From the NCBI GenBank assembly GCA_022571985.1, contig JACZWU010000002.1, positions 1-64,000 on the forward strand: a stretch of 64,000 nucleotides of DNA, read 5' to 3'. Under the pieces are notes generated by a model, which saw only the letters and a list, made by a program, of their open reading frames with translations, had not been told where the DNA came from and searched no databases. The position numbers and the translations under genes were made by a program. The DNA is from Candidatus Zixiibacteriota bacterium. GTDB taxonomy: Bacteria; Zixibacteria; MSB-5A5; GN15; FEB-12. Positions 1 through 34,808 of this stretch are shown in pieces (positions within the stretch are counted from its first letter, which is position 1; each line of letters opens with the position of its first letter).

Positions 1-3000
1 TTCTGCTAAGTTTTGGAGTATCAGCTACTGATATAGAGAGCACGCCGATTTTAACAACCTCGATTTTACCGACCGGCGCAGTCTTTATAGATAATGGCAA
101 CGGTACCGGATCTTTCGACTGGACACCGGACTACTTACAGTCAGGCAGTTACAATGTAACATTTTATGCCACTGATGACAGCACAGCAGTTGATAGTGAA
201 ATCGTTACAATTACAGTAACTGAAGCTGGCAATCAGCTGCCGATACTTACGGCAATTGGCGCCCAGTCTACAACCGAAAATGTTCTGCTTTCTTTCGGAG
301 TTTCAGCTTCAGATATAGAAAGTACTCCGACTTTATCAACCTCGACTCTACCGACAGGTGCAGTCTTTACAGATAACGGCAACGGTACCGGATCATTTGA
401 CTGGACGCCTACATTTTTACAATCTGGTGTTTACAGTGTAACTTTCTATGCCACCGATGATTCTTTGGCAGTTGATTCTGAAATAGTTTCAATAACTGTA
501 ATTGAGGCTGGCAATCAGCTGCCGATACTTGCAGCCATTGGCGCACAGTCAACTACTGAGAATATTCTGCTTTCGTTTGGTGTCTCAGCTACAGATGCTG
601 AAGGTGTATTGCCAGTTCTTACAACCTCAACTCTACCGACAGGTGCCATCTTTACAGATAACGGCAACGGTACCGGATCATTTGACTGGACGCCTACATT
701 TTTACAATCTGGTGTTTACAGTATAACTTTCTATGCCACCGATGATTCTTTGGCAGTTGATTCTGAAATAGTTTTAATAACTGTAATTGAGGCTGGCAAC
801 CAGTTGCCGATACTTGCAGCCATTGGCGCACAGTCAACTACTGAGAATATTCTGCTAAGTTTTGGAGTATCAGCTACTGATATAGAGAGCACGCCGATTT
901 TAACAACCTCGATTTTACCGACCGGCGCAGTCTTTATAGATAATGGCAACGGTACCGGATCTTTCGACTGGACACCCGGATCGAATCAGGGTGGCACATA
1001 TAATATTACTTTCTACGCTACCGATGATTCGACAGCAGTTGACAGCGAAGTTGTCGCTATAACGGTAAACTTTGTAAATGACGCTCCCGTCCTGGCAGCA
1101 ATAGGTGCCAAAGCGACTACAGAAAATGTGAATCTCAATTTCGGCGTAACAGCCTCTGACCCTGACGGTACTATTCCGGTGCTGACCACAAATTTACTTC
1201 CATCAGGAGCTTCTTTCACGGACAATGGCAACGGCAGCGGATCATTTGACTGGACACCCACTTACTTCCAGTCGGGAGTATACAACATAACTTTTTACGC
1301 AACCGACGATTCCTCGGCTGTGGATTCTGAAATCGTTACAATTACAGTCATTGATGCTGGAAACCAGTTACCGGTATTGGCAGTGATCGGACCTCAATCA
1401 ACTATCGAAAACTCAACTCTTCCATTTGATATATCGGCAACCGATATAGAGAGTACGCCGTCATTAACAGTCGCAAATTTGCCGACCGGTGCCGTATTTA
1501 TAGATAACGGTAATGGTATTGGAAGCTTTGACTGGGTACCGACCTTCCTGCAATCTGGTGTTTACAACGTAACATTTTACGCTACTGATGATAGTTCAGC
1601 AGTTGACTCTGAAATAGTTACAATTACAGTCATTGATGCTGGAAACCAGTTACCGGTATTGGCAGTGATCGGACCTCAATCGACTACCGAAAACGTACTT
1701 CTTTCATTTGGTGTCTCGGCAACAGATATAGAAAGTACTCCTGTTCTGACTACCTCGACCCTTCCAGGCGGTGCAGTTTTTACAGATAACGGCAACGGTA
1801 CCGGATCATTTGACTGGACTCCGACATTCCTGCAATCAGGCAGTTATAATGTAACGTTTTACGCCACTGATGACAGTACGGCTATAGATTCTGAAATTGT
1901 TACCATTACAGTTAATGACGCCGGCAACCAGCTGCCGATACTCTCTGCAATTGGAGCTCAGTCAACCACTGAAAATGTTCTACTTTCGTTTGGAGTTTCA
2001 GCCACTGATATAGAGAGTACTCCAGTTCTGACAACTTCAACTTTACCTACCGGTGCCATCTTTACAGATAACGGCAACGGTACCGGATTATTTGACTGGA
2101 CGCCTACATTCCTGCAGTCCGGCATATATAATGTGACTTTTTATGCGACTGACGATAGTTCCGCGATTGACTCAGAAGTTGTAACGATTACAGTAGCCGA
2201 TGCCGGCAACCAGCTGCCTGTATTGACCTCAATAGGTGCACAGTCTACTACTGAAAATGTTCTGCTTTCGTTTGCAGTTTCAGCCACTGATGCGGAAAGT
2301 ACACCTGTTTTAACTACTTCAGTTCTTCCAGCAGGCGCAGTCTTTATAGACAACGGCAACGGCACCGGTTCATTTGACTGGACACCGGATTTCTTACAGT
2401 CTGGCATATATAATGTGACTTTTTATGCGACTGACGATAGTTCAGCGATTGATTCGGAAGTTGTAACGATTACAGTAAACGATGCCGGCAACCAGCTGCC
2501 GGTACTTTCAGCAATAGGTGCTCAGTCAACGACTGAAAATGTGCTGCTTTCGTTCGGTCTGTCAGCAACAGATATTGAAAGCACTCCTGTTCTGACAACT
2601 TCAACTTTACCTACCGGTGCAATCTTTACAGATAACGGCAACGGCACCGGATCATTAGACTGGACTCCGACATTCCTGCAATCAGGCAGTTATAATGTAA
2701 CTTTCTATGCCACGGATGATTCTTTGGTAGTTGATTCTGAAATAGTTTCAATAACTGTAATTGAGGCTGGCAACCAGGCCCCAGTTCTGGCAGCAATTGG
2801 AGCTCAGTCAACCACTGAAAATGTTCTACTTTCGTTTGGAGTTTCAGCTTCGGATATTGAGAGTACTCCAACTTTAACTACCTCGACTCTTCCAAGCGGC
2901 GCAGTTTTTACAGATAACGGCAACGGTACCGGATCATTTGACTGGACGCCTACATTCCTGCAATCAGGCAGTTATAATGTAACTTTCTATGCCACTGATG

Positions 3001-17800: not shown

Positions 17801-20800
17801 CTCAGCCAGCGACCCTGACGGCACCACCCCCAGCTTCAGTAATTCAGTGCTGCCAACCGGCGCCACCTTTGTTGACAACGGCAACGGCAGCGCCACCTTC
17901 GACTGGACGCCCGACTTCACCCAGGGCGGCAGTTTCAATATAACTTTCCGGGCCTCCGACGGCGCCCTGACCGACTCCGAAGTGGTCACCATAACAGTCA
18001 CCGAATCCGGCAACCAGGCCCCGCTGCTTACTGCCATCGGCGCTCAGTCTGTCACCGAAGGTGTTAACTTAAACTTCGGCATCTCAGCTTCAGACCCCGA
18101 TGCCACCATACCTGCGCTTAGCACTGCCAATCTGCCAACCGGCGCTAGTTTTGTTGACAACGGTGACGGCTCCGGAACCTTTGATTGGACACCAGACTTC
18201 ACCCAGAGCGGGACGTATAATGTCACTTTCATTGCCTCCGACGGACTCTTAGCCGATAGCGAAGTGGTCACCATCTCCGTCTCAGAAACCGGCAACCAGA
18301 TTCCACAACTCTCAGCAATCGGGCCAAAAAGCACAACCGAAGATGTAAACTTAAGCTTCTCTGTCACGGCCAGCGACCCCGACGGCACCATCCCGGCTCT
18401 GTTGATCTCGACACTACCCTCTGGCGCCACCTTCACCGACAACGCTGACGGCAGCGGTAATTTCAGCTGGACGCCCGACTTTACCCAGAGCGGGACGTAT
18501 AACGTTACTTTTTATGCCTCTGACGGTGTGCTCTCAGATAGCGAAGTTGTCTCAATTACCGTCAACGAAGTCGGCAACCAGGCACCGGTCATGACTCTCA
18601 TCGGCGCTAAGTCTGTTAGCGAAGGTGCTAACTTAAACTTCAGCATCACTGCTGCCGATGCCGACGGCACCACCCCGACCTTCTCGACTTCGGCCCTGCC
18701 ATCAGGTGTAACTTTTACCGATAACTTAAACGGCAGCGCTGATTTTGACTGGATACCCAACTTCATCCAGAGCGGGACATATAATATAACTTTCATAGCC
18801 TCTGACGGCTTGCTCTCAGATAGCGAAGTCGTCACTATTACAGTCACCGAAGCCGGCAACCAGACGCCAGTCTTAAGCTCCATCGGCGCCCGGAGTACAA
18901 CCGAAAATGTTAATCTTAATTTTGTGGTCACAGCCTCTGACGCCGACAGCACAGTACCAGTACTTTCAACTTCTGCTTTACCCTCAGGCGCTACCTTCGT
19001 AGACAACGCTGACGGCACTGCTGATTTTGACTGGACACCAACCTTCATTCAAGCCGGGATATATAATATCACCTTCTATGCCACTGACGGCACAGCCACT
19101 GACAGTGAAGTCGTCACCATCACAGTCATTGAAGCCGGCAACCAGTCACCAGTTCTAGCCGCTATAGGCGCCCAGTCGGTCACCGAAGGACAACTGCTCT
19201 TGATTATTGCCACCGCCACAGATGTCGACGGACCAAACCCGACCATGACAACCTCAGCTCTGCCTTCAGGCGCGACTTTCACAGATAACGGCAACGGCAC
19301 CGCTGACTTTAACTGGACACCAACCTTTACTCAAAACGGCAGCTACTTTGTTATCTTCTATGCCACCGACGGCACCGCCTCAGACTCTGAAATTGTTGCC
19401 ATAACAGTCAACGAAGCCGGCAACCAGCCACCCGTCTTAGCCGTCATTGGCGCCCAGACAACCACCGAAGGAACCAACTTAAACTTTGCAGTCACAGCCA
19501 CAGATGCCGACGCTACCATCCCGACTCTGTCTGCTTCAACGCTGCCTTCAGGCGCTACTTTTACAGATAACGCCAACGGCTCAGGAGTATTTGACTGGAC
19601 ACCAAACTTCACCCAGAGCGGTATATACAGCGTAACTTTCTATACCACCGACGGCGCTTTAACCGACTCAGAAGTCGTCACCATTACAGTCACCGAATCA
19701 GGCAACCAGACGCCAGTCCTAAGCGCAATCGGCACCCAGTCAATAACCGAAGGAACGACTCTTAACTTTAGCCTCTCAGCCACCGATGCCGACTCTACCA
19801 TCCCGGCTCTGGCGACTTCCGCTTTACCCTCAGGCGCAACTTTTGTAGACAACGGCGACGGCTCAGCATCTTTTGACTGGACACCCAACTTTATTCAAAG
19901 CGGGACATATAACGTCACTTTCTATGCTTCCGACGGCATAGCCACCGACTCAGAAGCTGTCACCATTACCGTCAGCGAAGCCGGCAACCAGACCCCGACA
20001 CTTGAACCGATCGGCTCACAGGTCACCACCGAAGGCATCCAGCTGATAATTAATATCGCCGCCGCCGACCCCGACAGTATCATCCCCAGCCTCTCAAGCT
20101 CAAGCTTACCTGCCGGCGCAATATTCACCGATAATGGCAATGGCTCCGGCTCTCTTGACTGGACACCAACCTTTACCCAGGCCGGTATCTACAGCATTAC
20201 CTTCTTCGCCTCTGACGGCGCCGCCAAAGATTCTGAAATTGTCTCAATTACTGTTATTGAAGCCGGCAACCAGACACCGCTGTTAACTGCTATCGGCGCC
20301 CAGGCTACCAGCGAAGGTGTCAGTCTCAGCTTTGACGCAGCGGCCACCGATGCCGACGGCACCACCCCGGCTCTTACTGCTTCACCACTGCCGGCCGGCG
20401 CCATATTCACCGATAACGCTGACGGCTCAGGAACCTTCGGCTGGACGCCCGACTTTACCCAGAGCGGCATATATAATGTCACTTTCAAAGCCACCGACGG
20501 CGTTGCTACAGATTCCGAAGTCGTCACCATTACCGTTACCGAATCAGGTAACCAGGCACCGCTACTTAGCGCTATCGGAGCACAGTCTGTGACCGAAGGA
20601 CTAAATCTTAACTTCAGCATAACAGCCGCTGACCCCGACAGCACCATACCAGTCTTAACAACCTCAAGCTTACCGACCGGGGCTACTTTCATAGACAACG
20701 GCGACGGCTCAGGAACATTCGACTGGTCACCCGACTTTACCCAAAGCGCTGTCTATGGTCTTACTTTCTACGCCTCTGACGGCTTACTTATTGACTCTGA

Positions 20801-23800
20801 AGTCGTCACCATAACAGTCAACGAAGCCGGTAACCAGGATCCCGTCCTGGCCACTATCGGACAGAAGTTTGTACTTGAAGGCGCCAATCTTAACTTTACC
20901 ATCTCAGCCACGGACGCCGACGCCACCATTCCCAGCTTAATTGCCACCGACCTGCCCATCGGCGCCAGCTTCGTAGACAACGGCGACGGCAGCGGCACCT
21001 TCGACTGGACACCCGCCTTTATCCAGAGCGGTACTTATTTTGTCTTCTTCTACGCCTCTGACGGACTAATCTCCGACTCAGAAATCGTCAGAATTACTGT
21101 CAACGAAGCCGGCAACCAGCTGCCAGTCCTAAGCACTATCGGAAGTCAGTCTACTACCGAGGGAATAAACTTAAACTTTGCTCTCGCTGCGGTTGACCCT
21201 GACTCTACCATTCCCACTCTCTCAATTTCAAGTCTGCCAAGTGGCGCTATATTCACCGACAACGGCAATGGCACCGCATCTTTTGACTGGACACCGGACT
21301 TTAACCAGAGCGGCAGCTATAACGTCACCTTCTTTGCCTCCGACGGCGCCTCAAAAGATTCAGAAGTGGTCACCATTACCGTCAACGAAGGCGGCAACCA
21401 GACCCCGGTCTTAGCGAGCATAGGCAACAAGACCGTTTTAGAAGGTGTAAATCTGAACTTTGCCATAAGTGCCACCGATGTTGACGCTACTATTCCTATT
21501 CTAACCACCTCAAGTCTGCCGAGTGGCGCTATATTCACAGACAACGGCGACGGCACTGCCGACTTTGACTGGACACCAAACTTTATCCAGAGCGGGACGT
21601 ACAACGTCATCTTTTACGCTTCTGACGGCTCACTTATCGATAGTGAAGTCGTCAACATTACCGTCAACGAAGCCGGCAACCAGACGCCGGTCTTAGCTGC
21701 CATCGGACCCAAGTCTACCACCGAAGGCGCTACTCTTAACTTTGCAGTTACAGCCACCGATGCCGACTCTACCATCCCGGCTCTCTTTGCGCTCTCGCTG
21801 CCTTCAGGCGCCAGCTTCACCGACAACGGTGACGGCTCAGGCTCATTTAACTGGTCGCCAGACTTTACCCAGAGCGGGACGTATAACGTCACTTTCTATG
21901 CGTCTGACGGTTCAGCCGCTGATACCGAAATTGTTTCTATCTCTGTCAGTGAAGCCGGCAACCAGACTCCAATACTGACAGCCATCGGAGCACAAAGTAC
22001 TTCCGAAGGTGTCAGCTTAAACTTTTCCCTCTCAGCCACCGACGCCGACAGCACCATTCCCGTCCTGTCTGCTCTCTCACTACCCTCAGGCGCCATCTTC
22101 ACCGATAACGGTGACGGCTCAGCAACATTCGACTGGACACCGGACTTTACTCAGGCAGCTGTTTACAATGTCACCTTTATCGCCTCTGACGGCGTCGCCG
22201 CCGACTCAGAAATCGTCACTATAACGGTCGGCGAATCAGGCAACCAGGCCCCAATTCTGACTGCGATCGGCTCAAAGACAGTTACCGAAGGAATAAACTT
22301 AAACTTTACAGTCGCAGCCAGCGACCCCGACTCTACCATCCCGACCCTCTCGACGTCAAGCTTACCCTCAGGTGCGGTCTTCACCGACAACGGCGACGGC
22401 AGCGCATCTTTTGACTGGACACCGAACTTCATCCAGAGCGGGACATATAATGTCATCTTTTACGCCAATGACGGCTTCCTGAGCGACTCCGAAATCGTCA
22501 CCATCACAGTCACAGAAGCCGGCAACCAAAACCCAATACTCGCTACCATCGGACAGAAGACAATTCTAGAAGGTGCCAATCTAAATTTTGGAATTTCAGC
22601 AACTGATGCCGACAGTACTTTCCCTCTCTTAACAGCTACCGATCTTCCTATAGGAGCAACTTTTGTAGACAACGGCAATGGTACAGGAGTATTCGACTGG
22701 ACGCCGGCATTCACCCAGAGCGGAACCTATTTCGTATTCTTTTACGCTGCCGACAGCCTGGTCTCAGATAGTGAAATCGTCAGAATAACCGTCAACGAAG
22801 CCGGCAATCAGCTGCCAGTATTATCTGCAATAGGAAGTCAAAGTACAACCGAGGGAATTAACTTAAGCTTTGCAGTTTCGGCGGTTGACCCCGACAGTAC
22901 CATCCCGGTACTTTCAACTTCAACTTTACCGAGTGGCGCCACCTTTATCGATAATGGTGACGGTAGCGGCAGCTTCAGCTGGACACCTGGATTTGATCAA
23001 TCAGGAATTTATAACTTAACCTTCTTTGCATCCGATGGAGCCGCCAAAGATAGCGAGATAGTCACTATTACAATAGGCGACGGTGGCAACCAGTCGCCGA
23101 TTCTGGCAGCCATCGGCGCCCAAGCCGTAACAGAAGGTAACAATCTAAACTTTGCTGTCAGCGCTACAGATATTGATGCTACAATTCCGGTCCTGACAAC
23201 TTCAACTTTACCAGCCGGCGCCTCATTTACCGATAACACCAACGGCAACGGAACATTCGACTGGACACCGGCTTTTATTCAGAGCGGCTCCTACAATATT
23301 ACATTCTATGCCTCAGACGGGTCCCTGATTGACAGCGAAGTGGTGACGATCACAGTTGGTGAAGCCGGTAACCAGACGCCGATACTTACAGCAATTGGTG
23401 CTCAAACTATCAACGAAGGTGATTCGCTGACAATTTCAATATCAGCAGTTGATCCGGACAGCACTACGCCGGTCTTGACGACATCTACTCTGCCGAGTGG
23501 TGCTTCATTCACCGACAACGGCAATGGCACCGGCAGCTTTAACTGGGTACCGAACTTTATTCAATCCGGCATTTACAATATCAAACTTTTTGCAAGAGAC
23601 GCTTCCAATGCTGTCGACTCCGAAGTGGTGACCATCACAGTCGGTGAATCCGGCAACCAGCCGCCGGTTCTCGATTCAATTGGCGCCCAGACAACAACCG
23701 AAAACGTATTACTTAGCTTTGCCTTAACAGCCACCGACCCCGAAGGCATCACTCCGACCATGACTTCTTCGTCATTACCGGCCGGAGCAGCCTTTGTAGA

Positions 23801-26800
23801 CAATGGTAACGGCTCAGGCTCCTTTGACTGGACTCCTACTTTCCTGCAAAGCGGCGTTTATGTTGTAACATTCTTTACCAGCGACGGCATTTTGTCAGAC
23901 ACAGAGGCTGTTGTAATTACTGTCATTGAAGCCGGCAACCAGCTGCCTCTGCTCGATCCTATTTCCGACACTTCTTTAACAGAGGGAATAGCTTTTGTAC
24001 TGCCAGTAACTGCTTCAGATGCCGAATCTATTCCAGCTCTTACAACTTCAAGCTTGCCAACTGGAGCAACCTTCGCAGATAACGGTGACGGCAGCGGATC
24101 ATTCGATTGGACTCCAGGTTTTGTCCAAAGCGGTTCGTACCCTGTAACTTTCTATGCCACCGATGACTCTCTCGCAATCGACAGCAGCCTCATCATACTA
24201 ACTGTCAATGACGGCGGTAACCAGTCACCGGTTCTGAATCCAATCGGTGCTCAGGCAGTTGCCGAAGGGGTCGCCCTAAACTTTGGCTTCAGCGCTTTTG
24301 ACCCCGAAGGTTTTACTCCGGTTCTTTCCGCCACAAACTTACCTGCCGGGGCTTCTATTATAGATAGTGGAAACGGAGCTGGAAGCTTCTCATGGACTCC
24401 GGACTTCAACCAGAGCGGGACATATAATGTCACTTTTTACGCTACCGACGACTCCGCAGCAGTTGACAGCGAAATAATAACTATTACAGTTAACGAAGCC
24501 GGCAACCAGGCGCCGCTGCTGGCTACTATTGGAGCGCAGTCAACAGCGGAAGGCATTCAGTTACTCTTTGGAGTTTCTTCGTCCGATGGTGAAGACATTG
24601 CATTACTGACAACCTCCACTCTGCCAGCTGGAGCAACATTTGTAGATAGCGGTAACGGCAATGGTAGCTTTAGCTGGACACCAACTTTTGTACAGTCCGG
24701 CATATATAATGTAACTTTCTATGCTACCGATGATTCACTGGCGGTCGACAGCGAAGTCGTAACTATCACAGTTAATGAGGTCGGCAACCAGCTGCCGGTT
24801 TTGGCCGCCGTTGGTTCGCAGTCAATTCTTGAAGGTGTCAAGCTGCTGTTTGCAGTTACTGCAACAGATGGTGAGAGCATCCCTGTACTGACAACCTCGG
24901 CATTGCCTGCTGGCGCAAATTTTGTAGACAGCGGCAACGGAGCAGCGTCATTTAGCTGGACACCAAATTTTGTACAGAGCGGAATATATAATGTAACATT
25001 TTACGCTGCCGATGATTCTCTGGCAGTAGACTCAGAAGTGGTAACAATAACAGTAACTGACGCCGGCAACCAAGCGCCTCTGTTTGACTCCATCGGGTCC
25101 CAGGCAATTGTCGAGGGAATAAAATTGCAATTTATAATATCGGCTCTCGATGGTGAAAGCATTCCGACTCTGACAACTTCAACTCTACCTTCAGGCGCTG
25201 CTTTTGTAGATAGTGCAAACGGATCAGGTTCTTTTGTCTGGACACCGGATTTTGTACAGTCCGGCACTTATAGTGTCACTTTCTATGCCACCGATGATTC
25301 TCTGGCAGTAGACTCAGAAGTAGTAACTATCACAGTCAACGATGCCGGTAACCAGACACCTCTGCTTACTGCCATAGGCGCTCAAATAATCTCCGAGGGT
25401 GTGCAGCTGACAGTGACAGTCTCAGCCTCTGACGGTGAATCCATTCCAGCCCTGACAACCTCGGCGCTCCCGACAGGCGCTCTCTTTGTCGACAGCGGCA
25501 ACGGTATTGGCAGTTTTAAGTGGACGCCTACTTTCCTGCAATCGGGTGTTTACAATATTACATTCTATGCCACCGATGATTCACTGGCAGTTGATAGCGA
25601 GCTTGTTACAATTACAGTAACAGAGCCGGGTAATCAGGCCCCTGTTCTGGCGACTATAGGTGCCCAGACGGTAGCGGAAAACGTCGAACTGCAATTTACC
25701 ATATCTGCTGCAGATGCCGAAGGCATACCTGCTCTGACCACTTCCGCCCTGCCAGCCGGCGCTGTCTTTATAGATAGCGGCAACGGCTCCGGCAGCTTTA
25801 TCTGGACACCTAACTTTATTCAGTCGGGAGTATACAGCCTGACTTTCTATGCTACCGACGATTCACTGGCAGTCGACAGCGAAGTGGTGACTATTACAGT
25901 TAACGAAGTGGGCAATCAATTACCTCTGCTTGATTCGATTGGTGCACAGACGATCACAGAAGGAATACAGCTGTTGTTTGCAATCACAGCATCCGACGCC
26001 GAAAGCATCCCGATTCTGACCACATCCGCTCTTCCGACTGGTGCAGTCTTTACAGACAACGGCAATGGCTCTGGATCATTTGACTGGACTCCGGATTTCT
26101 TACAGTCAGGAACTTATAATGTAGCTTTCTATGCTACTGATGATTCACTGGCAGTTGACAGCGAAGTCGTAACTATTACAGTTGACGAAGCTGGCAACCA
26201 GGCTCCTGTGCTTGACTCTATTGGCGCCCAGACAACTCCAGAGGGTCTGCAGCTGCTATTTGTAGTCAACGCCTCCGACGGCGAAAGCATTCCTGTTTTA
26301 ACAACCTCAGCGCTTCCGAGCGGAGCTGTCTTTGTAGACAGCGGCAACGGTAGTGCCTCATTTAATTGGCTGCCTGAATTCACACAGGCAGGAATTTATA
26401 ATGTTACGTTTTACGCTACAGATGATTCAGCAGTTGTTGACAGTGAACTTGTCACAATAACCGTCACAGAAGCCGGCAACCAGCCGCCTGTTCTGGATTC
26501 AATTCCGGACACTTCTGTAACGGAGTCCTTACTTCTCTCATTTATTGTTACAGCATCAGACCCTGACAGCACTATACCTGCCTTGAGCACATCAATCCTG
26601 CCTGCCGGTGCGGTTTTTGTAGACAGCGCTAACGGCACTGGTGAATTCAACTGGACGCCAAGTTTTGCACAGAACGGAATATATCAAATCATATTTTATG
26701 CTTCAGACAGCCTTGATTTCGACAGTCAGGTCGTAACGATTACAGTAATTGATGTTGGCAACCAGCCGCCGCTGATTGATTCTATTGGCGACCAGTCAAC

Positions 26801-29618
26801 AGCTGAAGGTCTGATTCTCTCAATTGTAGTTACAGCCTCAGATGCCGAATCTGTTCCGGCGCTGACAACTTCAGCGCTTCCGATCGGTGCAACTTTCGTA
26901 GACAGTGCCAACGGCAACGGCTATTTTGACTGGACTCCTGGATTCACCCAGGCAGGCTTATATCCGATTACATTCTACGCCACTGATGATTCCAGCGCTG
27001 TAGACAGCCAGCTGATTACTATTACAGTTACCGAGTCTGGCGACCAGCCGCCCGTCTTTGATTCTCTGGCTGACTTTACGACCACCGAGCTGGACACCTT
27101 GATCGTAACAGTTAAGGCTATTGATCCCGATAGCTCCGGAATATCTCTGACAATTATTACCAACCTGACAAGTTTTAGTTTTGTAGATAGTGGCAACGGA
27201 GTTGGTGTACTGACTTACTTCCCCTCGCTGTTCGATGCCGGTCTAGACACCGTCAAATTCCTGGCTACTGATTCCGGAAGTCCGCCGAGGACGACAACTA
27301 TTGTCTCGGTAATCACGACAATTGAAAACAACCAGCCGCCGGTTTTTGATTCTGCCGGTCCTTATGCAGTCGAAGTAAACGATACCCTGATTTTCACTGT
27401 TTTTGCTGCGGATTCCACAGACCAGGATACTACGCATTCGGTCTTCTTGACGACTACAGGCCTGCCCGCCAACGCAAGTTTTACTGACAACGGTGACAAT
27501 ACCGGTACCTTTATATTTGCTCCTGTGGCAGGACAGGAGGGTTTTGATACGCTGGGTTTCCTGGCAACAGATGAGGGAACGCCTGCCCTTTCAGGTTTAT
27601 TGGATGTGGAAATAAGAGTAGTTGGAGTAAACATACCGCCGGTTCTTAATCCAATCGGAGCGCAGAGCGTAAAAGAGGGAGATATTCTTACAATTATTTT
27701 GACCGGCTACGACCCGGACTCTACAATGATACCGTTCTTTTCAGTAGACACTTCTCAATTACTTGGCGCCTCTTCACTGGTAGATAGTGGTAATGGTACA
27801 GCCGTTTTCACATATGTACCAAACTTCATCTCCTCCGGACTGAGAAATGTAACGTTCAGAATTCACGATGGCATAGACTTCGACAAAGAAGTTGTCATCA
27901 TTCAGGTCACTGATTTTGGTAACAGGCTGCCTCTTTACGATTCCATTCCGAGCCCGTCGGTTGTCGAAGGAGACTCTTTAGTTGTTTTCCTGACAGCCTA
28001 CGACCCTGATGACGGTCCGGTTGTGCTTTCGATAGATGAAGCTGCTACTCCTCTGCCGCCAAACTTCATCTTTACCGATAGCGGCGGCGGCCTGGCTACT
28101 TTGGAATTATATCCGGTATTTAATCAGGCAGGGAATTACCCGCTTGATCTGATAGTAGCTGACGACAGTTCAACGGCTGATACTTTTTCAATGATTGTAC
28201 AAATTATCGAAGCTGGCCCGCAGCCGCCTATACTCGATAGCATACCGGACTACTCGGTTGATGAGGCAACCAGCCTAACTTTCACTATTACAACATCAGA
28301 TATTGATTCTGTGCCGCCGGTTCTGACAACTTCCGCTCTGTCCGGAAGCGCCAGCTTTACCGATAATGGAGATTACACAGGAACCTTTAGCTGGACTCCT
28401 ACTCATGATGACTCAGGTTTTTATACAGTTACTTTCTATGCTACTGATGCGGATCCGGCAACTACAATGGTAGATTCGCAGGAGATAACAATTATTGTCG
28501 TTGACGTAAACAGGGCGCCGTTCATGGATAATTTGCCAAATCCTTCAAATACAATGAACGAATTTGATACGCTTTCGCTTTACTTTACTGCCACTGACCA
28601 GGATGGCTCAACTCCCAGCATTAGAGTTACGTTGTCTGGTGCTGATACGATGGCAACTAACATGACATTCTTTGATTCAGGTAATGGAGCCGGTGTCTTT
28701 AGGTTCATACCCGACCATACTCAAGGCAACGACAATCCGACTTCTTACAGCTACATCGTGACAGCCATCGATGAATTCGATTCCACTCTATCACAATCCA
28801 GCGGAACGCGCACAATACGAGTGAGCAATGTTAACGTTGCACCTACTTTGAATTTCCTTGACGGGGCAGGTCCTTTCGATATTGTCGAAGGTGAAGCCCT
28901 GAGGTTCAGAGTGCTGGCCGAAGATATTGACGGGTCCATAACCTCGCTGGATGTAACCAATTTGCCTGCTGGCGCAACTTTTTCTGGACCGGTAGACTAC
29001 TTCAAAACTTTAACCTGGACGCCTCTTTTCAATCAAGCCGGCACCTATAACATAAAGTTCAGTACCAGCGACAACGATCTGGCCGGTGTCAATCAGACAG
29101 TTAAAATAAATGTGGCCGAGTTTGGCAACCACGCTCCATTCTTTACAACAACACTACCTGACACAATTGACTTCTTTGTAGGAGTAGTCGGAAATATTGT
29201 CGTCAAAGCCCAGGACCTGGACTTTGATAATATTACCATTTCATTAGACTTGGGGCCCTTGAGCAGTTCATTTGTAGACTCCGGCAATGGCACAGGTGTG
29301 CACTCCTATATGCCAGATTCTTCTGTAATAGGCTTGCTCACGTCTGTCAGATTTATCGTCACCGATGTTCCGGCTGGCCTAACCGACACGTTGGAAACAA
29401 TTTACTGGATTAGGAGTTTCCTTAGAGGAGATCTGGACGGCAATTTCAAATATACCATGAATGACATAGTATACCTGGTGAACTATATTTATAGAGGTGG
29501 ACCTGAGCCAGATCCTCTCGAAGCCGGAGACGTTGATGCCAGCGGTGCCATAAATACTGCCGACCTGTCTTACCTGATTAACTTTATCTATCGAGGCGGC
29601 CCGGCTCCTCCGCAATAG
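1..29618 (+). CDS. Giant Ig-like repeat surface protein with dockerin-like tail (5' partial)
   Basis: The frame is open from the first complete codon at position 3 to TAG at 29616-29618, so at least 9871 residues (about 1 MDa) are encoded and the true start lies upstream. The methionine at 465 is only an internal residue of a repeat. The protein is a tandem array of about 94-residue units (282 bp) starting with GNQxPVLxxIG, then a TEG/TEN strand, an LPxGAxF turn, DNGxGTGxFDWTP and a YATD/ASDG-DSExVxITV end strand. This matches cadherin-like putative Ig domains (He_PIG type), which typically build long extracellular stalks or adhesins. From about 27040 the domains become diverse, and the last 65 residues form two dockerin-like calcium loops. 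No T9SS sorting domain or membrane anchor is visible at the C-terminus. Function is inferred: surface fibre, adhesin or scaffold. Repeat copy number may be affected by assembly collapse. Confidence 0.9.
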   Translation, partial: LLSFGVSATDIESTPILTTSILPTGAVFIDNGNGTGSFDWTPDYLQSGSYNVTFYATDDSTAVDSEIVTITVTEAGNQLPILTAIGAQSTTENVLLSFGVSASDIESTPTLSTSTLPTGAVFTDNGNGTGSFDWTPTFLQSGVYSVTFYATDDSLAVDSEIVSITVIEAGNQLPILAAIGAQSTTENILLSFGVSATDAEGVLPVLTTSTLPTGAIFTDNGNGTGSFDWTPTFLQSGVYSITFYATDDSLAVDSEIVLITVIEAGNQLPILAAIGAQSTTENILLSFGVSATDIESTPILTTSILPTGAVFIDNGNGTGSFDWTPGSNQGGTYNITFYATDDSTAVDSEVVAITVNFVNDAPVLAAIGAKATTENVNLNFGVTASDPDGTIPVLTTNLLPSGASFTDNGNGSGSFDWTPTYFQSGVYNITFYATDDSSAVDSEIVTITVIDAGNQLPVLAVIGPQSTIENSTLPFDISATDIESTPSLTVANLPTGAVFIDNGNGIGSFDWVPTFLQSGVYNVTFYATDDSSAVDSEIVTITVIDAGNQLPVLAVIGPQSTTENVLLSFGVSATDIESTPVLTTSTLPGGAVFTDNGNGTGSFDWTPTFLQSGSYNVTFYATDDSTAIDSEIVTITVNDAGNQLPILSAIGAQSTTENVLLSFGVSATDIESTPVLTTSTLPTGAIFTDNGNGTGLFDWTPTFLQSGIYNVTFYATDDSSAIDSEVVTITVADAGNQLPVLTSIGAQSTTENVLLSFAVSATDAESTPVLTTSVLPAGAVFIDNGNGTGSFDWTPDFLQSGIYNVTFYATDDSSAIDSEVVTITVNDAGNQLPVLSAIGAQSTTENVLLSFGLSATDIESTPVLTTSTLPTGAIFTDNGNGTGSLDWTPTFLQSGSYNVTFYATDDSLVVDSEIVSITVIEAGNQAPVLAAIGAQSTTENVLLSFGVSASDIESTPTLTTSTLPSGAVFTDNGNGTGSFDWTPTFLQSGSYNVTFYATDDSTAVDSEIVIITVNDAGNQLPVLTSIGAQSTTENVLLSFGVSATDAESTPVLTTSALPAGAVFVDSLNGKGSITWTPTFLQSGSYNVTFYATDDSTAVDSEIVSITVIEAGNQLPVLTSIGAQSTSENILISFVVSATDIESTPVLTTSTLPIGAIFTDNGNGTGSFDWTPTFLQSGSYNVTFYATDDSTAVDSEIVSITVIEAGNQLPVLTSIGAQSTTENVLLSFGIAATDIESTPVLTTSSLPTGAVFTDNGNGTGSFDWTPTFLQSGSYNITFYATDDSTAIDSEIVIITVNDAGNQLPILSAIGAQSTTENVLLSFGVLATDIESTPVLTTSTLPNGAIFTDNGNGTGSFEWTPTFLQSGSYNITFYATDDSTAVDSEIVNITVNDGGNQLPVLTSIGAQSTTENVLLSFGVSATDAESTPVLTTSALPAGAVFVDSLNGKGSITWTPTFLQSGSYNITFYATDDSTAVDSEIVTITVTEAGNQLPILSAIGAQSTTENVLLSFGVSATDIESTPVLTTSTLPTGAIFTDNGNGTGSFDWTPTFLQSGSYSVTFYATDDSTAVDSEIVTITVNDGGNQLPILTAIGARSTVENITLSFAVSATDIESTPVLSVSALPSGATFTVNGDGTGNFDWTPTFLQSGSYNVTFYATDDSASVDSEVVTITVSDGGNQLPILTSIGAQFITENVLLSIGISASDIESTPVLTTSTLPVGAVFTDNGNGTGSFDWTPTFLQSGSYSVTFYAADDSAAVDSEIVSITVNEAGNQAPVLAAIGARSTTENVLLSFGVSATDIEGTVSLATSALPAGASFTDNGNGTGSFDWTPTFLQSGSYNVTFYATDDSTAVDSEIVTITVNDGGNQLPILAFIGAQSTTENILLTFNVSATDIESTPVLTTSSLPNAATFTDNGNGTGSFEWTPLYNQAGIYNITIYATDDSTAIDSEIVEITILEAGNQPVTLNPIGNQSVNEGINLSFTVSATDPDSTFAVLTTSALPSGATYVDNGDGTAIFDWTPDFTQSGSYNISFYASDGISIDTEIVNINVLESGNQSPTLSAIGNKTTAEGVLLSFVISAVDPDSTVPSLSSSTLPTGALFVVNGDGTASFDWTPDFTQAGIYNITFYATDGVATDSEQISITVNEAGNQPPVLTAIGAQGVIEGANLNFGVFASDADGTIPILSTSSLPTGAVFVDSGNGNGSFDWTPSFTQSGVYNVTFYATDGSATDSEIVTISVVEEGNQPPVLALIGAQSITEGLNLNFGVSASDPDSTIPVLTTSALPIGATFSDNADGTGVFDWTPEFVQSGSYNITFYASDGVEIDSEIIVITVNEAGNQEPVMATIGAQSTIEGLNLNFVISVIDPDSTFLTLTTSSLPAGASFTDNGDGTGTFDWTPTFTQSGSYFVIFSAIDDSSAGDSEIVSITINEAGNQSPVLTSIGAQSTTENINLAFAVAATDPDATTPTLSTSTLPSGATFVDNGNGSGNFSWTPNFIQAGVFNVTFYAFDGALTDSEIVDITVTEAGNQTPVLATIGAQSTTEGVLLSFGLSASDADSTIPAFSASTLPSGASFTDNGDGTGTFNWTPDFVQSGTYNVTFYATDSLATDSEIVTITVTDAGNQSPTLATIGAQSTTENLNLNFVISASDPESALPSLTTSSLPAGATFVDNGNGTGTFDWIPDFTQSGSYNVTFYATDDSTAVDSELVTITVIESGNQVPVLNPIGAKGSAEGVLLSFSLLASDPDGTIPTLSAIVLPSGATFVDNGDGTADFNWTPNFVQSGTYNVTFYASDGIATDSETITITISEAGNQNPVLATIGSRNILEGESLNFVTSATDPEGNPPTLTTSTLPSGATFIDNGDGTATFDWTPNFNQSGTYGISFYATDDSSAVDSENVTITVTEAGNQIPVLATIGPQSTSENVQLLFSISASDPDATTPTLSAVSLPTGAVFTDNGNGTGLFDWTPDFTQAGSYIVTFIASDGLASDSEIVSITVNEEGNQAPVLAAIGAKSVTEGANLNFTAVASDLDGTTPSLSSSALPAGATFTDNLNGTGTFDWTPTFVQAGSYNVTFYASDGLLTDSEVVTITVNEAGNQGPILSSIGSKATTEGIQLAFGISATDPDSTIPALSALSLPSGATFTDNLDGTGTFDWTPNFIQGGIYNVTFIAADSLAADSEVVTITVTEAGNQLPVLATIGAQSVTEGINLNFAISASDPDSTTPVLTTSSLPLGASFTDNGDGTGSFDWTPDFTQAGTYNIIFRASDGLASDSEVVAFTINEAGNQTPVLSNIGARSTTEGVALIFTVLAADADGTTPVISTSALPTGATFTDNLDGTADFNWLPTFTQSGSYVVTFYATDGAATDSEVVSITVNEAGNQIPQLDPIGAKGTTEGINLNFVISASDVDGTIPSLTTSTLPTGASFIDNGNGSGTFDWTPDFTQSGTYNITFYATDGAATDSEIVTISVSEAGNQTPVLDPIGSKVTDEGVNLNFGISASDPDGLLPSLTTSALPAGASFTDNGDGTGSFDWTPTFVQAGLYNITFFASDGAAKDSEIVSISVIEVGNQAPVLIAIGAKSATEGTSLNFGITASDPDSTIPNLSTSSLPAGATFVNNGDGTGTFDWTPDFTQSGIYNVTFYATDGLATDSEQVTITIFEAGNQNPVLAVIGAQSVLEGTLLSFAVTASDPDGTFATLSTSVLPAGASFVDNLDGTGSFSWTPNFIQSSTYNVTFYATDGVATDSEVVSITVSEAGNQSPELVAIGAQSTTEGINLNFSVSASDPDSTITILTTSTLPIGATFIDNGNGTGSFDWTPDFTQSGTYNVTFYASDSLATDSEVVTIGVNEAGNQAPVLANIGDQSTTEGINLNFGVSATDPDGSTPTFTTSSLPSGATFIDNGDGTGTFDWLTDFTQSGTYFVIFRASDGVLIDSEVVTITILEAGNQAPTLDPIGSKSITEGQNLLFSISSTDADGTTPTLTSSALPSGATFVDSGNGTGSFDWTPDFTQAGSYNVTFYSTDGVETDSETVTITVNEAGNQIPILAAIGSQTVSEGANLNLLISASDADSTISFMSAAPLPAGATFTDNGDGTGTFDWTPDFTQSGTYNITFAASDGLATDSEVVTINVNESGNQAPILEPIGFQSTTEDVNLNFNIAASDPDGTTPTLSTSSLPTGATFVDSGNGAGNFDWTPGFDQSGDYMVTFYATDGVATDSEIVQITVNEVGNQAPILAVIGAKNVGEGANLNFGVTASDADATTPNLSTSTLPAGATFVDSLNGSGSFDWSPDFTQSGTYSITFYASDGLLIDSEVVTITVNDAGNQLPLLTAIGSQTTIEGTNLNFSLSAADVDGPSPVLTTSVLPIGATFVDNADGTGNFDWTPGFTQSGTYGVTFYATDDSLAVDSEVVTISVNEAGNQSPVLATIGSKSVTEGANLSFSVSAVDPDSTTSALSTSTLPSGAIFTDNGDGTANFNWTPDFTQSGSYFVIFYATDGIATDSEIVSFTVNEAGNQVPILTAIGSKIVTEGINLNFTVSATDPDSTIPALSTSALPSGATFVDNGDGTATFDWTPSFVQSGVYNVTFLTTDGALSDSEIVTITVNEAGNQNPILATIGSQSTIEGVNLNFSVSATDPDATTPTLSTSTLPVGAAFTDNDNGTGVFDWTPGFTQSGSYFVIFYASDGFSSDSEVVSITVNEAGNQSPVLSAIGSQSVTEGSSLSFAVLAVDPDSTIPVLSTSTLPSGATFIDNGDGTGSFEWSPDFIQAGGYSVTFYASDGTVTDSEVVTITVIEAGNQSPVLATIGAQSVVEGINLAFAISASDADSTIPALSTSALPAGATFVDNGNGTASFDWTPDFTQGGSYSVTFYATDGLATDSEVVTITVTEAGNQTPVLAAIGAKSTSENVLLAFAVSATDADGTFPVLTTTALPTGAVFTDNADGSGSFDWTPTFTQAGVYNITFYAADGLATDSEAITITVGEAGNQSPILSSIGSQSSNENVNLTFAVSASDPDGTTPVLTAVNLPSGAVFTDNGNGSGSFDWTPDFTQAGTYLITFRASDGVLTDSEVVAVTIFETGNQSPVLSAIGAQGVTEGNNLNFVTTATDPDGTTPSFSSTTLPTGASYSDNGDGSATFDWTPLFTQSGIYNITFYATDGSLTDSEVVTITVTEAGNQPPTLAAIGPKGTTEGVNLNFSVAASDPDSTIPVLTTSTLPSGATFVDNANGSGTFDWTPDFTQSGTYNVTFYATDGIATDSEIVSITVNEVGNQAPVLATIGAQTTTENINLSFAVSAVDPDATTPVLTTSTLPSGAVFVDSGNGSGSFNWTPTFIQSGSYFVIFYASDGVASDSEVVSITVNEAGNQPPVLSTIGAKSTTEGNNLNFSITASDADGTNATLSTSTLPSGVTFIDNADGSASFDWTPNFIQSGSYNITFYASDGLATDSEVVTITVTEAGNQSPVLTAIGAKATTEGINLNFVVAATDADSTIPVLSTSSLPTGAVFTDNGNGSGTFDWTPIFTQAGTYNVTFYASDGLLTDSEVVNITVNEAGNQTPVLATIGARTTTEGVSLNFTISATDADSLIPALTTSSLPAGASFTDNGDGSGTFDWTPTFTQANSYFVIFIASDGVAADSEIVSITVNEAGNQAPTLAAIGAKSVSEGNSLNFDIAASDPDGTTPTLSALTLPSGATFTDNTNGTGTFDWTPSFTQAGIYSVTFIASDGSLADSEVVTITVAEAGNQSPVLSFIGAKGITEGLNLNFSISATDADATIPTLSTSALPSGATFTDNTNGTGTFDWTPSFTQSGTYNVTFYAFDGIATDSEVVTITVNDAGNQRPLLSAIGAQSSTEGLLLTFAAAASDPDGTTPSINTGTLPSGASFVDNGDGSGSFSWTTTFTQAGIYNILFIAADGVLSDSETVQITILEAGNQTPQLAAIGAKFVNEGANLNFSISASDPDGTTPSFSNSVLPTGATFVDNGNGSATFDWTPDFTQGGSFNITFRASDGALTDSEVVTITVTESGNQAPLLTAIGAQSVTEGVNLNFGISASDPDATIPALSTANLPTGASFVDNGDGSGTFDWTPDFTQSGTYNVTFIASDGLLADSEVVTISVSETGNQIPQLSAIGPKSTTEDVNLSFSVTASDPDGTIPALLISTLPSGATFTDNADGSGNFSWTPDFTQSGTYNVTFYASDGVLSDSEVVSITVNEVGNQAPVMTLIGAKSVSEGANLNFSITAADADGTTPTFSTSALPSGVTFTDNLNGSADFDWIPNFIQSGTYNITFIASDGLLSDSEVVTITVTEAGNQTPVLSSIGARSTTENVNLNFVVTASDADSTVPVLSTSALPSGATFVDNADGTADFDWTPTFIQAGIYNITFYATDGTATDSEVVTITVIEAGNQSPVLAAIGAQSVTEGQLLLIIATATDVDGPNPTMTTSALPSGATFTDNGNGTADFNWTPTFTQNGSYFVIFYATDGTASDSEIVAITVNEAGNQPPVLAVIGAQTTTEGTNLNFAVTATDADATIPTLSASTLPSGATFTDNANGSGVFDWTPNFTQSGIYSVTFYTTDGALTDSEVVTITVTESGNQTPVLSAIGTQSITEGTTLNFSLSATDADSTIPALATSALPSGATFVDNGDGSASFDWTPNFIQSGTYNVTFYASDGIATDSEAVTITVSEAGNQTPTLEPIGSQVTTEGIQLIINIAAADPDSIIPSLSSSSLPAGAIFTDNGNGSGSLDWTPTFTQAGIYSITFFASDGAAKDSEIVSITVIEAGNQTPLLTAIGAQATSEGVSLSFDAAATDADGTTPALTASPLPAGAIFTDNADGSGTFGWTPDFTQSGIYNVTFKATDGVATDSEVVTITVTESGNQAPLLSAIGAQSVTEGLNLNFSITAADPDSTIPVLTTSSLPTGATFIDNGDGSGTFDWSPDFTQSAVYGLTFYASDGLLIDSEVVTITVNEAGNQDPVLATIGQKFVLEGANLNFTISATDADATIPSLIATDLPIGASFVDNGDGSGTFDWTPAFIQSGTYFVFFYASDGLISDSEIVRITVNEAGNQLPVLSTIGSQSTTEGINLNFALAAVDPDSTIPTLSISSLPSGAIFTDNGNGTASFDWTPDFNQSGSYNVTFFASDGASKDSEVVTITVNEGGNQTPVLASIGNKTVLEGVNLNFAISATDVDATIPILTTSSLPSGAIFTDNGDGTADFDWTPNFIQSGTYNVIFYASDGSLIDSEVVNITVNEAGNQTPVLAAIGPKSTTEGATLNFAVTATDADSTIPALFALSLPSGASFTDNGDGSGSFNWSPDFTQSGTYNVTFYASDGSAADTEIVSISVSEAGNQTPILTAIGAQSTSEGVSLNFSLSATDADSTIPVLSALSLPSGAIFTDNGDGSATFDWTPDFTQAAVYNVTFIASDGVAADSEIVTITVGESGNQAPILTAIGSKTVTEGINLNFTVAASDPDSTIPTLSTSSLPSGAVFTDNGDGSASFDWTPNFIQSGTYNVIFYANDGFLSDSEIVTITVTEAGNQNPILATIGQKTILEGANLNFGISATDADSTFPLLTATDLPIGATFVDNGNGTGVFDWTPAFTQSGTYFVFFYAADSLVSDSEIVRITVNEAGNQLPVLSAIGSQSTTEGINLSFAVSAVDPDSTIPVLSTSTLPSGATFIDNGDGSGSFSWTPGFDQSGIYNLTFFASDGAAKDSEIVTITIGDGGNQSPILAAIGAQAVTEGNNLNFAVSATDIDATIPVLTTSTLPAGASFTDNTNGNGTFDWTPAFIQSGSYNITFYASDGSLIDSEVVTITVGEAGNQTPILTAIGAQTINEGDSLTISISAVDPDSTTPVLTTSTLPSGASFTDNGNGTGSFNWVPNFIQSGIYNIKLFARDASNAVDSEVVTITVGESGNQPPVLDSIGAQTTTENVLLSFALTATDPEGITPTMTSSSLPAGAAFVDNGNGSGSFDWTPTFLQSGVYVVTFFTSDGILSDTEAVVITVIEAGNQLPLLDPISDTSLTEGIAFVLPVTASDAESIPALTTSSLPTGATFADNGDGSGSFDWTPGFVQSGSYPVTFYATDDSLAIDSSLIILTVNDGGNQSPVLNPIGAQAVAEGVALNFGFSAFDPEGFTPVLSATNLPAGASIIDSGNGAGSFSWTPDFNQSGTYNVTFYATDDSAAVDSEIITITVNEAGNQAPLLATIGAQSTAEGIQLLFGVSSSDGEDIALLTTSTLPAGATFVDSGNGNGSFSWTPTFVQSGIYNVTFYATDDSLAVDSEVVTITVNEVGNQLPVLAAVGSQSILEGVKLLFAVTATDGESIPVLTTSALPAGANFVDSGNGAASFSWTPNFVQSGIYNVTFYAADDSLAVDSEVVTITVTDAGNQAPLFDSIGSQAIVEGIKLQFIISALDGESIPTLTTSTLPSGAAFVDSANGSGSFVWTPDFVQSGTYSVTFYATDDSLAVDSEVVTITVNDAGNQTPLLTAIGAQIISEGVQLTVTVSASDGESIPALTTSALPTGALFVDSGNGIGSFKWTPTFLQSGVYNITFYATDDSLAVDSELVTITVTEPGNQAPVLATIGAQTVAENVELQFTISAADAEGIPALTTSALPAGAVFIDSGNGSGSFIWTPNFIQSGVYSLTFYATDDSLAVDSEVVTITVNEVGNQLPLLDSIGAQTITEGIQLLFAITASDAESIPILTTSALPTGAVFTDNGNGSGSFDWTPDFLQSGTYNVAFYATDDSLAVDSEVVTITVDEAGNQAPVLDSIGAQTTPEGLQLLFVVNASDGESIPVLTTSALPSGAVFVDSGNGSASFNWLPEFTQAGIYNVTFYATDDSAVVDSELVTITVTEAGNQPPVLDSIPDTSVTESLLLSFIVTASDPDSTIPALSTSILPAGAVFVDSANGTGEFNWTPSFAQNGIYQIIFYASDSLDFDSQVVTITVIDVGNQPPLIDSIGDQSTAEGLILSIVVTASDAESVPALTTSALPIGATFVDSANGNGYFDWTPGFTQAGLYPITFYATDDSSAVDSQLITITVTESGDQPPVFDSLADFTTTELDTLIVTVKAIDPDSSGISLTIITNLTSFSFVDSGNGVGVLTYFPSLFDAGLDTVKFLATDSGSPPRTTTIVSVITTIENNQPPVFDSAGPYAVEVNDTLIFTVFAADSTDQDTTHSVFLTTTGLPANASFTDNGDNTGTFIFAPVAGQEGFDTLGFLATDEGTPALSGLLDVEIRVVGVNIPPVLNPIGAQSVKEGDILTIILTGYDPDSTMIPFFSVDTSQLLGASSLVDSGNGTAVFTYVPNFISSGLRNVTFRIHDGIDFDKEVVIIQVTDFGNRLPLYDSIPSPSVVEGDSLVVFLTAYDPDDGPVVLSIDEAATPLPPNFIFTDSGGGLATLELYPVFNQAGNYPLDLIVADDSSTADTFSMIVQIIEAGPQPPILDSIPDYSVDEATSLTFTITTSDIDSVPPVLTTSALSGSASFTDNGDYTGTFSWTPTHDDSGFYTVTFYATDADPATTMVDSQEITIIVVDVNRAPFMDNLPNPSNTMNEFDTLSLYFTATDQDGSTPSIRVTLSGADTMATNMTFFDSGNGAGVFRFIPDHTQGNDNPTSYSYIVTAIDEFDSTLSQSSGTRTIRVSNVNVAPTLNFLDGAGPFDIVEGEALRFRVLAEDIDGSITSLDVTNLPAGATFSGPVDYFKTLTWTPLFNQAGTYNIKFSTSDNDLAGVNQTVKINVAEFGNHAPFFTTTLPDTIDFFVGVVGNIVVKAQDLDFDNITISLDLGPLSSSFVDSGNGTGVHSYMPDSSVIGLLTSVRFIVTDVPAGLTDTLETIYWIRSFLRGDLDGNFKYTMNDIVYLVNYIYRGGPEPDPLEAGDVDASGAINTADLSYLINFIYRGGPAPPQ
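5871..23640 (+). repeat. Repeat block B: DPDST-type 282-bp units
   Basis: About 63 units carry the consensus SASDPDSTIPxLSTS, DFTQSGTYNVTFYASDG and TDSEVVTITV. The YATDDS element of block A is replaced by a shorter ASDG/ATDG form. Units are more diverged than in block A. The part from about 13500 to 22600 is clearly richer in C- and G-ending codons (37 of 60 bases G or C at 13561-13620 and 38 of 60 at 17521-17580, hand counts). Confidence 0.8.
23641..27040 (+). repeat. Repeat block C: DSLAVDSEVV-type units
   Basis: About 12 units return to a YATDDSLAVDSEVVTITV end strand and a SIPxLTTSALP centre, with DSGNGxGSF in the turn. The block resembles A in layout but has its own consensus and a mid-range composition (29 of 60 bases G or C at 24721-24780, hand count). 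It is followed by divergent domains. Confidence 0.75.
27041..29420 (+). other. Divergent Ig-like domains near the C-terminus of the giant protein
   Basis: Roughly eight units keep the DSGNGxG / PxFxxAG pattern but vary in length (about 90-105 residues) and sequence. They no longer show the near-identical DNA of the upstream array. This is the old, stable end of the protein, while copy number grows upstream. Confidence 0.6.
29421..29615 (+). other. Double dockerin-like module at the C-terminus of the giant protein
   Basis: Two EF-hand-like calcium loops are visible, GDLDGNFKYTMND and GDVDASGAINTAD. Each is followed by a helix ending in YIYRGG or FIYRGG, and the protein ends GGPAPPQ. Spacing of the acidic residues (1, 3, 5 and 12) fits dockerin type I. 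The same tail occurs in the next secreted gene and in the broken protease, so it may be a shared docking or sorting module. Confidence 0.75.
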
Positions 29619-30173
29619 TTGCGCCCAATATTCTGGACAATCTTCCTAATACCTCTGATTTGAAGGCTTTTCGACAAGAATCGCTGCTGTGGGATTAGCC
29701 CCGAAGGCTTTAAAAACAGGGGAAATCTCTTGACAATTTACTTGCTCTCCCATATTTTAGTTTGACCCACTACTGGGGAAGTCGGCCTGTATGCGGCCAT
29801 TTCTCAATAGAAATGTGGCATGTTTTAGTACTGCCACACGTAATGACAGCATCAGCGGAAGCTGGTTAATTCTTAAGACGGTGGAATTTACAACAATACG
29901 GTATTTGTTAACACTTACCTCAGTTACAAACTAATAGAAAGCTAGTTAAGTAGACAACATTTTTGAGAATTAACAATATAATTAACTTTTTCGTGCTGCT
30001 ATGTGCATGTGCGAAGGGAGGTGAATCTGCAAAAGAGTAAGAAAACAGCTTTTTGTTTGTCCCTTAGTTTGAGGACAAAAGGTGAACTACTTTCCAATTG
30101 CAACGCATTTGCGTTTGGTGAAGGAACAATTAATTAATGGGAACTTTAAAAAAACTCTCGAAAGGAGCAATTG
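29619..30173. other. Long intergenic leader with hairpins, no gene
   Basis: No convincing coding region is seen. A promoter-like pair lies at 29730-29758. Two adjoining perfect hairpins follow: catttct/agaaatg at 29798-29815 and gtggca/tgccac at 29815-29837. An eight-base perfect Shine-Dalgarno core (GGAGGTGA) sits at 30017-30024 without an ordinary start codon at proper spacing. The mRNA leader of the next gene would be about 400 bases long. Confidence 0.5.
29730..29758 (+). promoter_or_regulatory. Candidate sigma70-like promoter
   Basis: TTGACA at 29730-29735, a 17-base spacer, and TATTTT at 29753-29758 (four of six bases match the -10 consensus). It would drive the secreted gene at 30174 through a long structured leader. 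Promoter rules for this phylum are not established. Confidence 0.4.
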
Positions 30174-33788: not shown

Positions 33789-34808
33789 GTTTAGCTAAAC
33801 GAGAATATCATCGTATATTGATAACTAAGTTAACCCCGGCGGAGTGCCACCACCGATTTACTTGCCAATATTGTGAGGACTACAAAACAAGCAGGTAATT
33901 TGATTATGAGAATTAGAACAGCGTCCCGGCACTTTTTGACTTTTTTGTTTCTGTTGCTGGTAGTTTCGTCAGCATCTGCAGAAAAATATCCGGACGGAGA
34001 TCCTCCAAAACCTTACATAATTAAAGGGCGTCTTACTATTCAATTTGAAGATGAGGTCAGTACAGAATCGTTCAGCCAGAGCTTTGGAAAAGTAAATTTT
34101 TCTCTGCCGAGTCTGGATATCATTTTAGAAAAGTATAATGTATATTCGGCAAATGCTGTTTTTCCCTGGCGCAAGGAAAAACCTAAAGCAAACTCAGGAA
34201 TTTACGACCTCACCAGATTCTGGGAAATTTACTTTGCTGAAACTGCCGACGAAAATAGATTAATAGAAGAATTACTTCAAAACCCAAACGTTCGAAATGT
34301 CGAAACTGTCTGGGCGTTGCCAATTCATGCCTCTCCTGATGATCCTTCCTGGAATTTACAATGGGCCATGTTTCCCGGAGGGATAGATCCGTTGTTTTAT
34401 GATGCCTGGGATCTGGAAACGGGATCGGACTCAATCAAATTTGCCAATATTGATACCGGCGTTGACTACTGACATCCTGACCTTGTGGGAAACGTCTGGG
34501 TAAATCCCGGAGAAGATCTGGATGGAGATGGTCTGGTCTTTGACGTCAACGACTTAAACGGTATCGACGATGACGGTAATGGCATTGTTGATGACCTGAT
34601 AGGCTACGATTTTTTTACAGGTTGGGCGGATTAGGAACAATGCCCGGAGAGGATGGCGGTGTCCGGGACCCGGATCCTAATGACTTTAACAGCCATGGTA
34701 CTCATATTGCCGGGATCGCGGCCGGGATGAATAACAACGGCACCGGTGTAACCGGCATAGCCTGGAGATTGGTTCGGAGGCAACAGGTCATATAGGGGAG
34801 TACAGATA

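Follow-up and report, generated by a model that had tools for sequence, protein, structure and literature searches.

The window analyzed here, a 64,000-nucleotide stretch that forms the first 64 kb of contig C9 (G000:C9:1-64000) in the 17-contig, 2.93-Mb assembly of a Candidatus Zixiibacteriota bacterium (G000), opens inside a giant frame of Ig-like repeats ending in a dockerin, which raises the question of what such a protein is and what its dockerin could hold on to. The frame (3-29618, + strand) runs for 9,871 open codons with a single stop, at its end; by comparison, 30-kb Markov-1 sequences simulated with matching composition never stayed open for more than 208 codons. With an HMM trained on the units themselves, 104 of them were located, mostly spaced by 94-95 aa, and on 1,000-aa pieces these matched He_PIG (PF05345, 215.5 bits) and Big_9 (PF17963, 186.1 bits), placing the protein by its tandem units among the bacterial Ig-like repeat proteins. 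The initial annotation had described a giant open Ig-repeat frame with its true start upstream, and both points are borne out, as the contig itself starts where the window does and the 5' part of the gene lies on contig C11. Together, the C11 and C9 parts encode at least 12,282 aa (1,261 kDa, ~126 units), with a pI of 4.05 and two cysteines for this minimum-size product. The giant frame is genuine, and it exceeds the size first stated. Its ranking as one of the larger bacterial frames holds as far as it is large, but it falls far short of the record: a 39,678-aa protein is reported in Omnitrophota, where one giant carries nine dockerins (PMC10066038). The features of the window are as follows:

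3..29618 (+): 3' part (9,871 aa) of the giant Ig-like fiber gene, which continues 5' on contig C11:2-7222(-)
3..4754 (+): homogenized, lineage-specific units b1-b17, with best matches to another unit mostly at 80-97% aa identity
4755..29366 (+): units b18-b104, one-to-one collinear with the orthologue of genome G002, with hardly any indels
26769..29366 (+): divergent, dockerin-proximal C-terminal Ig-like domains (units b96-b104), of low identity to other units
29424..29615 (+): single C-terminal dockerin with two F-hands, of the Cys-less fiber class (PF00404, 29.6 bits)
30171..33692 (+): downstream syntenic neighbor (1,173 aa) with its own terminal dockerin (33477-33674) of the common Cys-paired class

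When one unit was used to search the whole genome, C9 and the beginning of C11 were the only places with arrays; isolated weak copies turned up on C6 and in the gene that follows on C11. The C11 frame (2,407 aa) begins with GTG-ATG at position 7222, opens with a signal-peptide-like sequence and leaves the contig at its start. C11 ends within '...LPVLTSIGAQ' and C9 takes up at '(V)LLSFGV', and the register is kept if the gap measures 15 bp, with or without any number of whole ~282-bp units in addition. The join is further supported because G009, a genome from a different genus, keeps the corresponding genes in this order on one contig: homologues of P0006 and P0003 (both C11 genes in G000), a complete 3,135-aa fiber, and a homologue of P0005 (a C9 gene in G000). 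Register, uniqueness and synteny form the basis of the join; reads are not part of it, which counts against the explanation favored below. Upstream of the fiber on C11, P0003, P0004 and P0006 stand in a row (L030:7244-14509), all with T9SS-like tails, and an orthologue of P0006 also precedes the P0003 counterpart in G009 (L075:49-2637).

Along the array, conservation between congeners differs by zone. The 5' third (the C11 units plus b1-b17) is homogenized, lineage-specific and non-collinear with the congener G002, and the contigs of both G000 and G002 break within it. Adjacent units are ~60-70% identical in DNA where in register. Units 5-91 of the G002 orthologue pair in order with b18-b104, with a few blurred best matches near b90-b93, and fragments from G001 present much the same unit correspondence. 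In a gapped alignment with G002, the last 87 units (8,287 aa) share 84.9% identity with two compensating 1-aa indels, and dN/dS over 8,286 codons is 0.14 (dN 0.096, dS 0.678); against G001, 4,564 aa align at 88.1% identity with zero indels. Because they are collinear, near indel-free and low in dN/dS, units b18-b104 can be regarded as real, under purifying selection and fixed in number. The unchanged number may mean that length is under selection, or that the units have diverged too far to recombine, which would be neutral. That a tandem array should keep exactly 87 repeat units from one species to another was not to be expected, and it opens fiber-length control to testing. In mid-array (14600-22000), a strong negative GC skew (to about -0.22) accompanies raised GC, at the identical position also in G002.

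At its C-terminus, the fiber scored 29.6 bits against Dockerin_1 (PF00404; cut-off 22.9), which assigns it to this family, and the fiber-dockerin profile A3 matched solved dockerin structures (E 3.4e-7). Two F-hand loops, DLDGNFKYTMND and DVDASGAINTAD, can be read in the sequence. The double dockerin-like end proposed initially is rejected, as Pfam gives one Dockerin_1 domain here, with two F-hand halves. No T9SS sorting tail was matched on the fiber itself, whose C-terminus is the dockerin.

Nor is a dockerin on a non-enzyme unusual in this genome, as had been supposed. A lineage-specific profile gave 107 matches, and an inventory drawn from the stretches around them contained, after duplicate removal, ~92 proteins (fiber included) whose dockerin lies 0-13 aa before the stop; beta-propeller and lectin-like proteins are numerous among them. 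A T9SS tail followed the terminal dockerin in none of the 92, and by a crude rule about 88 of 91 begin with a signal-peptide-like sequence. Among the matches listed for the 90 dockerin proteins scanned (25 families), FG-GAP propellers, subtilases and TSP_3 were commonest, other propellers and a C-type lectin also occurred, and no cellulase family appeared. Most C-terminal dockerins (83/92) have one Cys in the linker and another near the end, possibly a disulfide clamp of the dockerin in this lineage; the fiber dockerin is without this pair. The Cys-paired dockerins are often preceded by CCxGxRGD (dockerin C-termini, L081-L131). Fiber dockerins of G000, G001, G002, G009 and G021 form their own clade (support 0.909), apart from the other dockerins of the genome. 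Within its own genome the G000 fiber dockerin does not exceed 52% identity to any other, but it is 59-88% identical to those of the other four fibers.

Further along the window, a subtilase (33873-36186; Peptidase_S8_N, Peptidase_S8, PKD and a dockerin end) is split over three frames and is a frameshifted or decayed copy; its G021 counterpart is a single 810-aa frame (L072:13260-15689). At 40650-41387, a gamma-glutamyltranspeptidase is represented by 245 aa of its C-terminal part only; the G002 frame has 580 aa (L062:15486-17225).

The initial annotation had also called for a search for a cognate cohesin, and it led to the neighboring gene, whose product is cohesin-like and ends in a T9SS tail. 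The gene of this protein, P0003, lies directly upstream of the fiber gene. Over 911 aa, P0003, which has three candidate cohesin modules, shares 42% identity with an orthologue that contains PF00963 cohesins; scores in this and two further orthologues were 41.8, 39.8 and 28.8 bits, all above cut-off, and each of these orthologues also carries a T9SS tail as well as an internal dockerin. The Pfam model reported no cohesin in P0003 itself, so the assignment was made via the orthologues, and the AlphaFold model of its cohesin-dockerin-cohesin region reached a pLDDT of 38; both points count against our explanation. Profile searches of the PDB were marginal: matches to the P0003 cohesin profile A4 were all cohesins (E 0.0045-0.08), and the sole match to the cohesin-2 profile A5 was a flagellin-like protein. 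Por_Secre_tail scored 25.9 bits in P0003, just below the cut-off of 27, and 31.7 and 30.3 bits in orthologues. Since the T9SS translocon gene SprA is also present (SprA_N, 45.1 bits), the genome combines a sorting domain on P0003 with a T9SS, as is characteristic of T9SS cargo. Within the fiber, no cohesin modules were found, and instead of the scaffold for dockerin or cohesin partners envisaged at first it looks like a docking client. Elsewhere in the genome, four other proteins gave Pfam cohesin matches (two of them marginal), all with a T9SS tail in frame.

This gene pairing extends across the order. The scaffold, traced by the second cohesin-like module of P0003, is single-copy in 48 of 56 genomes, and of the 24 loci whose sequence continues for at least 300 bp past the scaffold gene, 22 have a frame with a unit array or the N-terminal domain that opens -31 to +24 bp from the scaffold stop. 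Of 20 loci that were extended, 12 reach the contig end within about 3 kb of the scaffold match, as expected if the array breaks assemblies; that contigs end inside the array so soon after the scaffold gene in many genomes suggests why such genes are under-reported. Complete single-gene fibers with 32-34 units and a dockerin were found in four genera (L164, L165, L176, L075). In G021, G040, G038, G014, G054 and G010, the array starts in a gene that has no dockerin and goes on in a second gene, an arrangement that counts against our explanation; the second gene carries a dockerin where its end was seen.

At the opposite end, the N-terminal domain occurs twice in the fiber, the second copy ~2,000 residues on, and in at least three copies in G001. 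It is 61-71% identical between loci, its named relatives are all from Candidatus Zixiibacteriota, and no sequence match was found in the PDB. The model (pLDDT 75) is a jelly roll (beta-sandwich) that resembles carbohydrate-binding modules (CBMs), aligning 131 residues of CBM15 at a Z of 10.5 and an rmsd of 3.2, a score that non-CBM jelly rolls also attain. Sugar binding by this domain would be a guess from the modeled fold.

The frame, the order of its parts, the gene pairing, the separate class of the dockerin, conservation, purifying selection and the presence of an SprA gene were all computed directly. Taking these together, we consider it somewhat probable that the protein is a secreted surface fiber, held by its C-terminal dockerin in the P0003 cohesin and with the N-terminal domains as its tip. 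In such a fiber, a Sec signal peptide would be followed by the jelly-roll domain, ~126 Ig-like units of ~94 aa and one dockerin, giving a stalk of roughly 0.5 micrometer if each unit spans ~4 nm (our estimate). The dockerin would most likely plug, in a calcium-dependent manner, into the cohesin of the upstream-encoded P0003, which in turn would be fixed at the outer surface by its T9SS C-terminal domain. Held at its C-terminus, the fiber would leave the N-terminal domains exposed as an adhesive tip. We infer secretion, this predicted cohesin-dockerin binding, the orientation, a sugar ligand, and passage of the 1.26-MDa chain across the outer membrane without a T9SS tail of its own. To our knowledge, dockerin-like domains are common in bacteria without proven cohesin partners, which counts against the model. 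More tentatively, the fiber may be the dedicated structural client of a wider, non-cellulosomal, T9SS-anchored cohesin-dockerin system into which ~92 secreted proteins plug, with stalk length selected and only the tip region turning over.

Several alternatives concern the gene itself. That the array is an artefact of assembly or collapse is scarcely credible: it is highly repetitive and sits at a contig start, as such an error might, yet two congeneric assemblies contain identical units in identical order with almost no indels, and complete smaller fibers sit within contigs in other genera. We reject this explanation, which collinearity with the two congeners largely refutes for 4755-29618. 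It is also very unlikely, if less so, that the fiber of this genus consists of two adjacent genes, an array without a dockerin and then one with a dockerin, whose boundary falls inside the C11/C9 gap. Such pairs do occur in the six genomes named above, but the units flanking the gap on either side are of one homogenized type. The two-gene architecture was also not seen in the three genomes of the genus, neither the first-gene end domain nor the second-gene start domain being found in any of them, which is weak evidence as these assemblies lack the gap sequence.

Other alternatives leave the gene intact and differ over its dockerin. This domain could be a calcium-stabilized C-terminal cap or an export or retention tag, with the neighboring cohesin unbound and the fiber released into the matrix or held otherwise. 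The shared terminal position of the ~92 dockerins, 0-13 aa from the stop and never followed by a T9SS tail, is as expected of a tag, and the cohesins identified in the genome are far fewer than the dockerins, from which a tag might be deduced. We nevertheless judge this unlikely, since fiber dockerins form a separate clade without the Cys pair of the common class and the fiber gene is paired with a cohesin-like gene order-wide. Less likely again is that the fiber dockerin binds the cohesin of another surface protein, encoded at the C4, C5 or C9 loci, and that the P0003 cohesins serve other clients. The four further proteins with cohesin matches, all T9SS-tailed, make this conceivable, with two of the four matches marginal, but adjacency to P0003 is conserved and P0003 is single-copy order-wide. 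Tethering of the fiber by P0003 is the reading carried forward here.

In clostridial cellulosomes, scaffoldin cohesins receive dockerin-bearing enzymes and the scaffold is held at the cell surface. The proposed system would share with them a type I-like C-terminal dockerin on secreted proteins and a surface-held cohesin scaffold. In contrast, the client here is a non-catalytic Ig fiber of >12,000 aa, cellulases are not prominent among the clients, and a T9SS tail takes the place of the S-layer or sortase anchor on the scaffold. Stalked adhesins of the SprB and RTX types carry a long Ig-like stalk with an anchor at one end and a binding domain at the other; unlike them, the fiber has neither a T9SS tail of its own nor an RTX domain among its Pfam matches, and a separate anchor protein is proposed. 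For Candidatus Stygibacter (Cloacimonadota), genomes suggest that enzymes dock on a cohesin scaffold of 3,755 aa bearing a T9SS C-terminal domain (PMC8542988). Both systems, each deduced from genomes, combine dockerin-ended secreted proteins with tethering to a T9SS-tailed cohesin scaffold, whereas the scaffold here is shorter and is paired with a giant fiber gene, and the genome has ~92 dockerin proteins. Giant proteins of Chlorobium and Omnitrophota likewise have very long frames and adhesion-type domains (PMC10066038, PMC11573180), Big_9, Cadherin and Dockerin_1 being among the common domains of huge proteins (PMC11573180), and poor conservation is described for most Velamenicoccia giants (PMC10066038). 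A single terminal dockerin beside a cohesin-like gene sets the fiber apart from the Chlorobium and Omnitrophota giants, as does the conserved number of its 87 units across species. In the open literature searched, we found no dockerin-tethered giant fiber reported with a dedicated cohesin gene, no such system in Zixibacteria and, within incomplete coverage, no paper on both Zixibacteria and dockerins. Overall, a dockerin plugging into a cohesin scaffold is already known or proposed, and an Ig-fiber client with a fixed unit number would be new. With the proposed pairing, cohesin-dockerin plugging would reach beyond enzymes to include a structural surface fiber, and a giant bacterial fiber, one of a class usually without a partner, would gain a concrete one.
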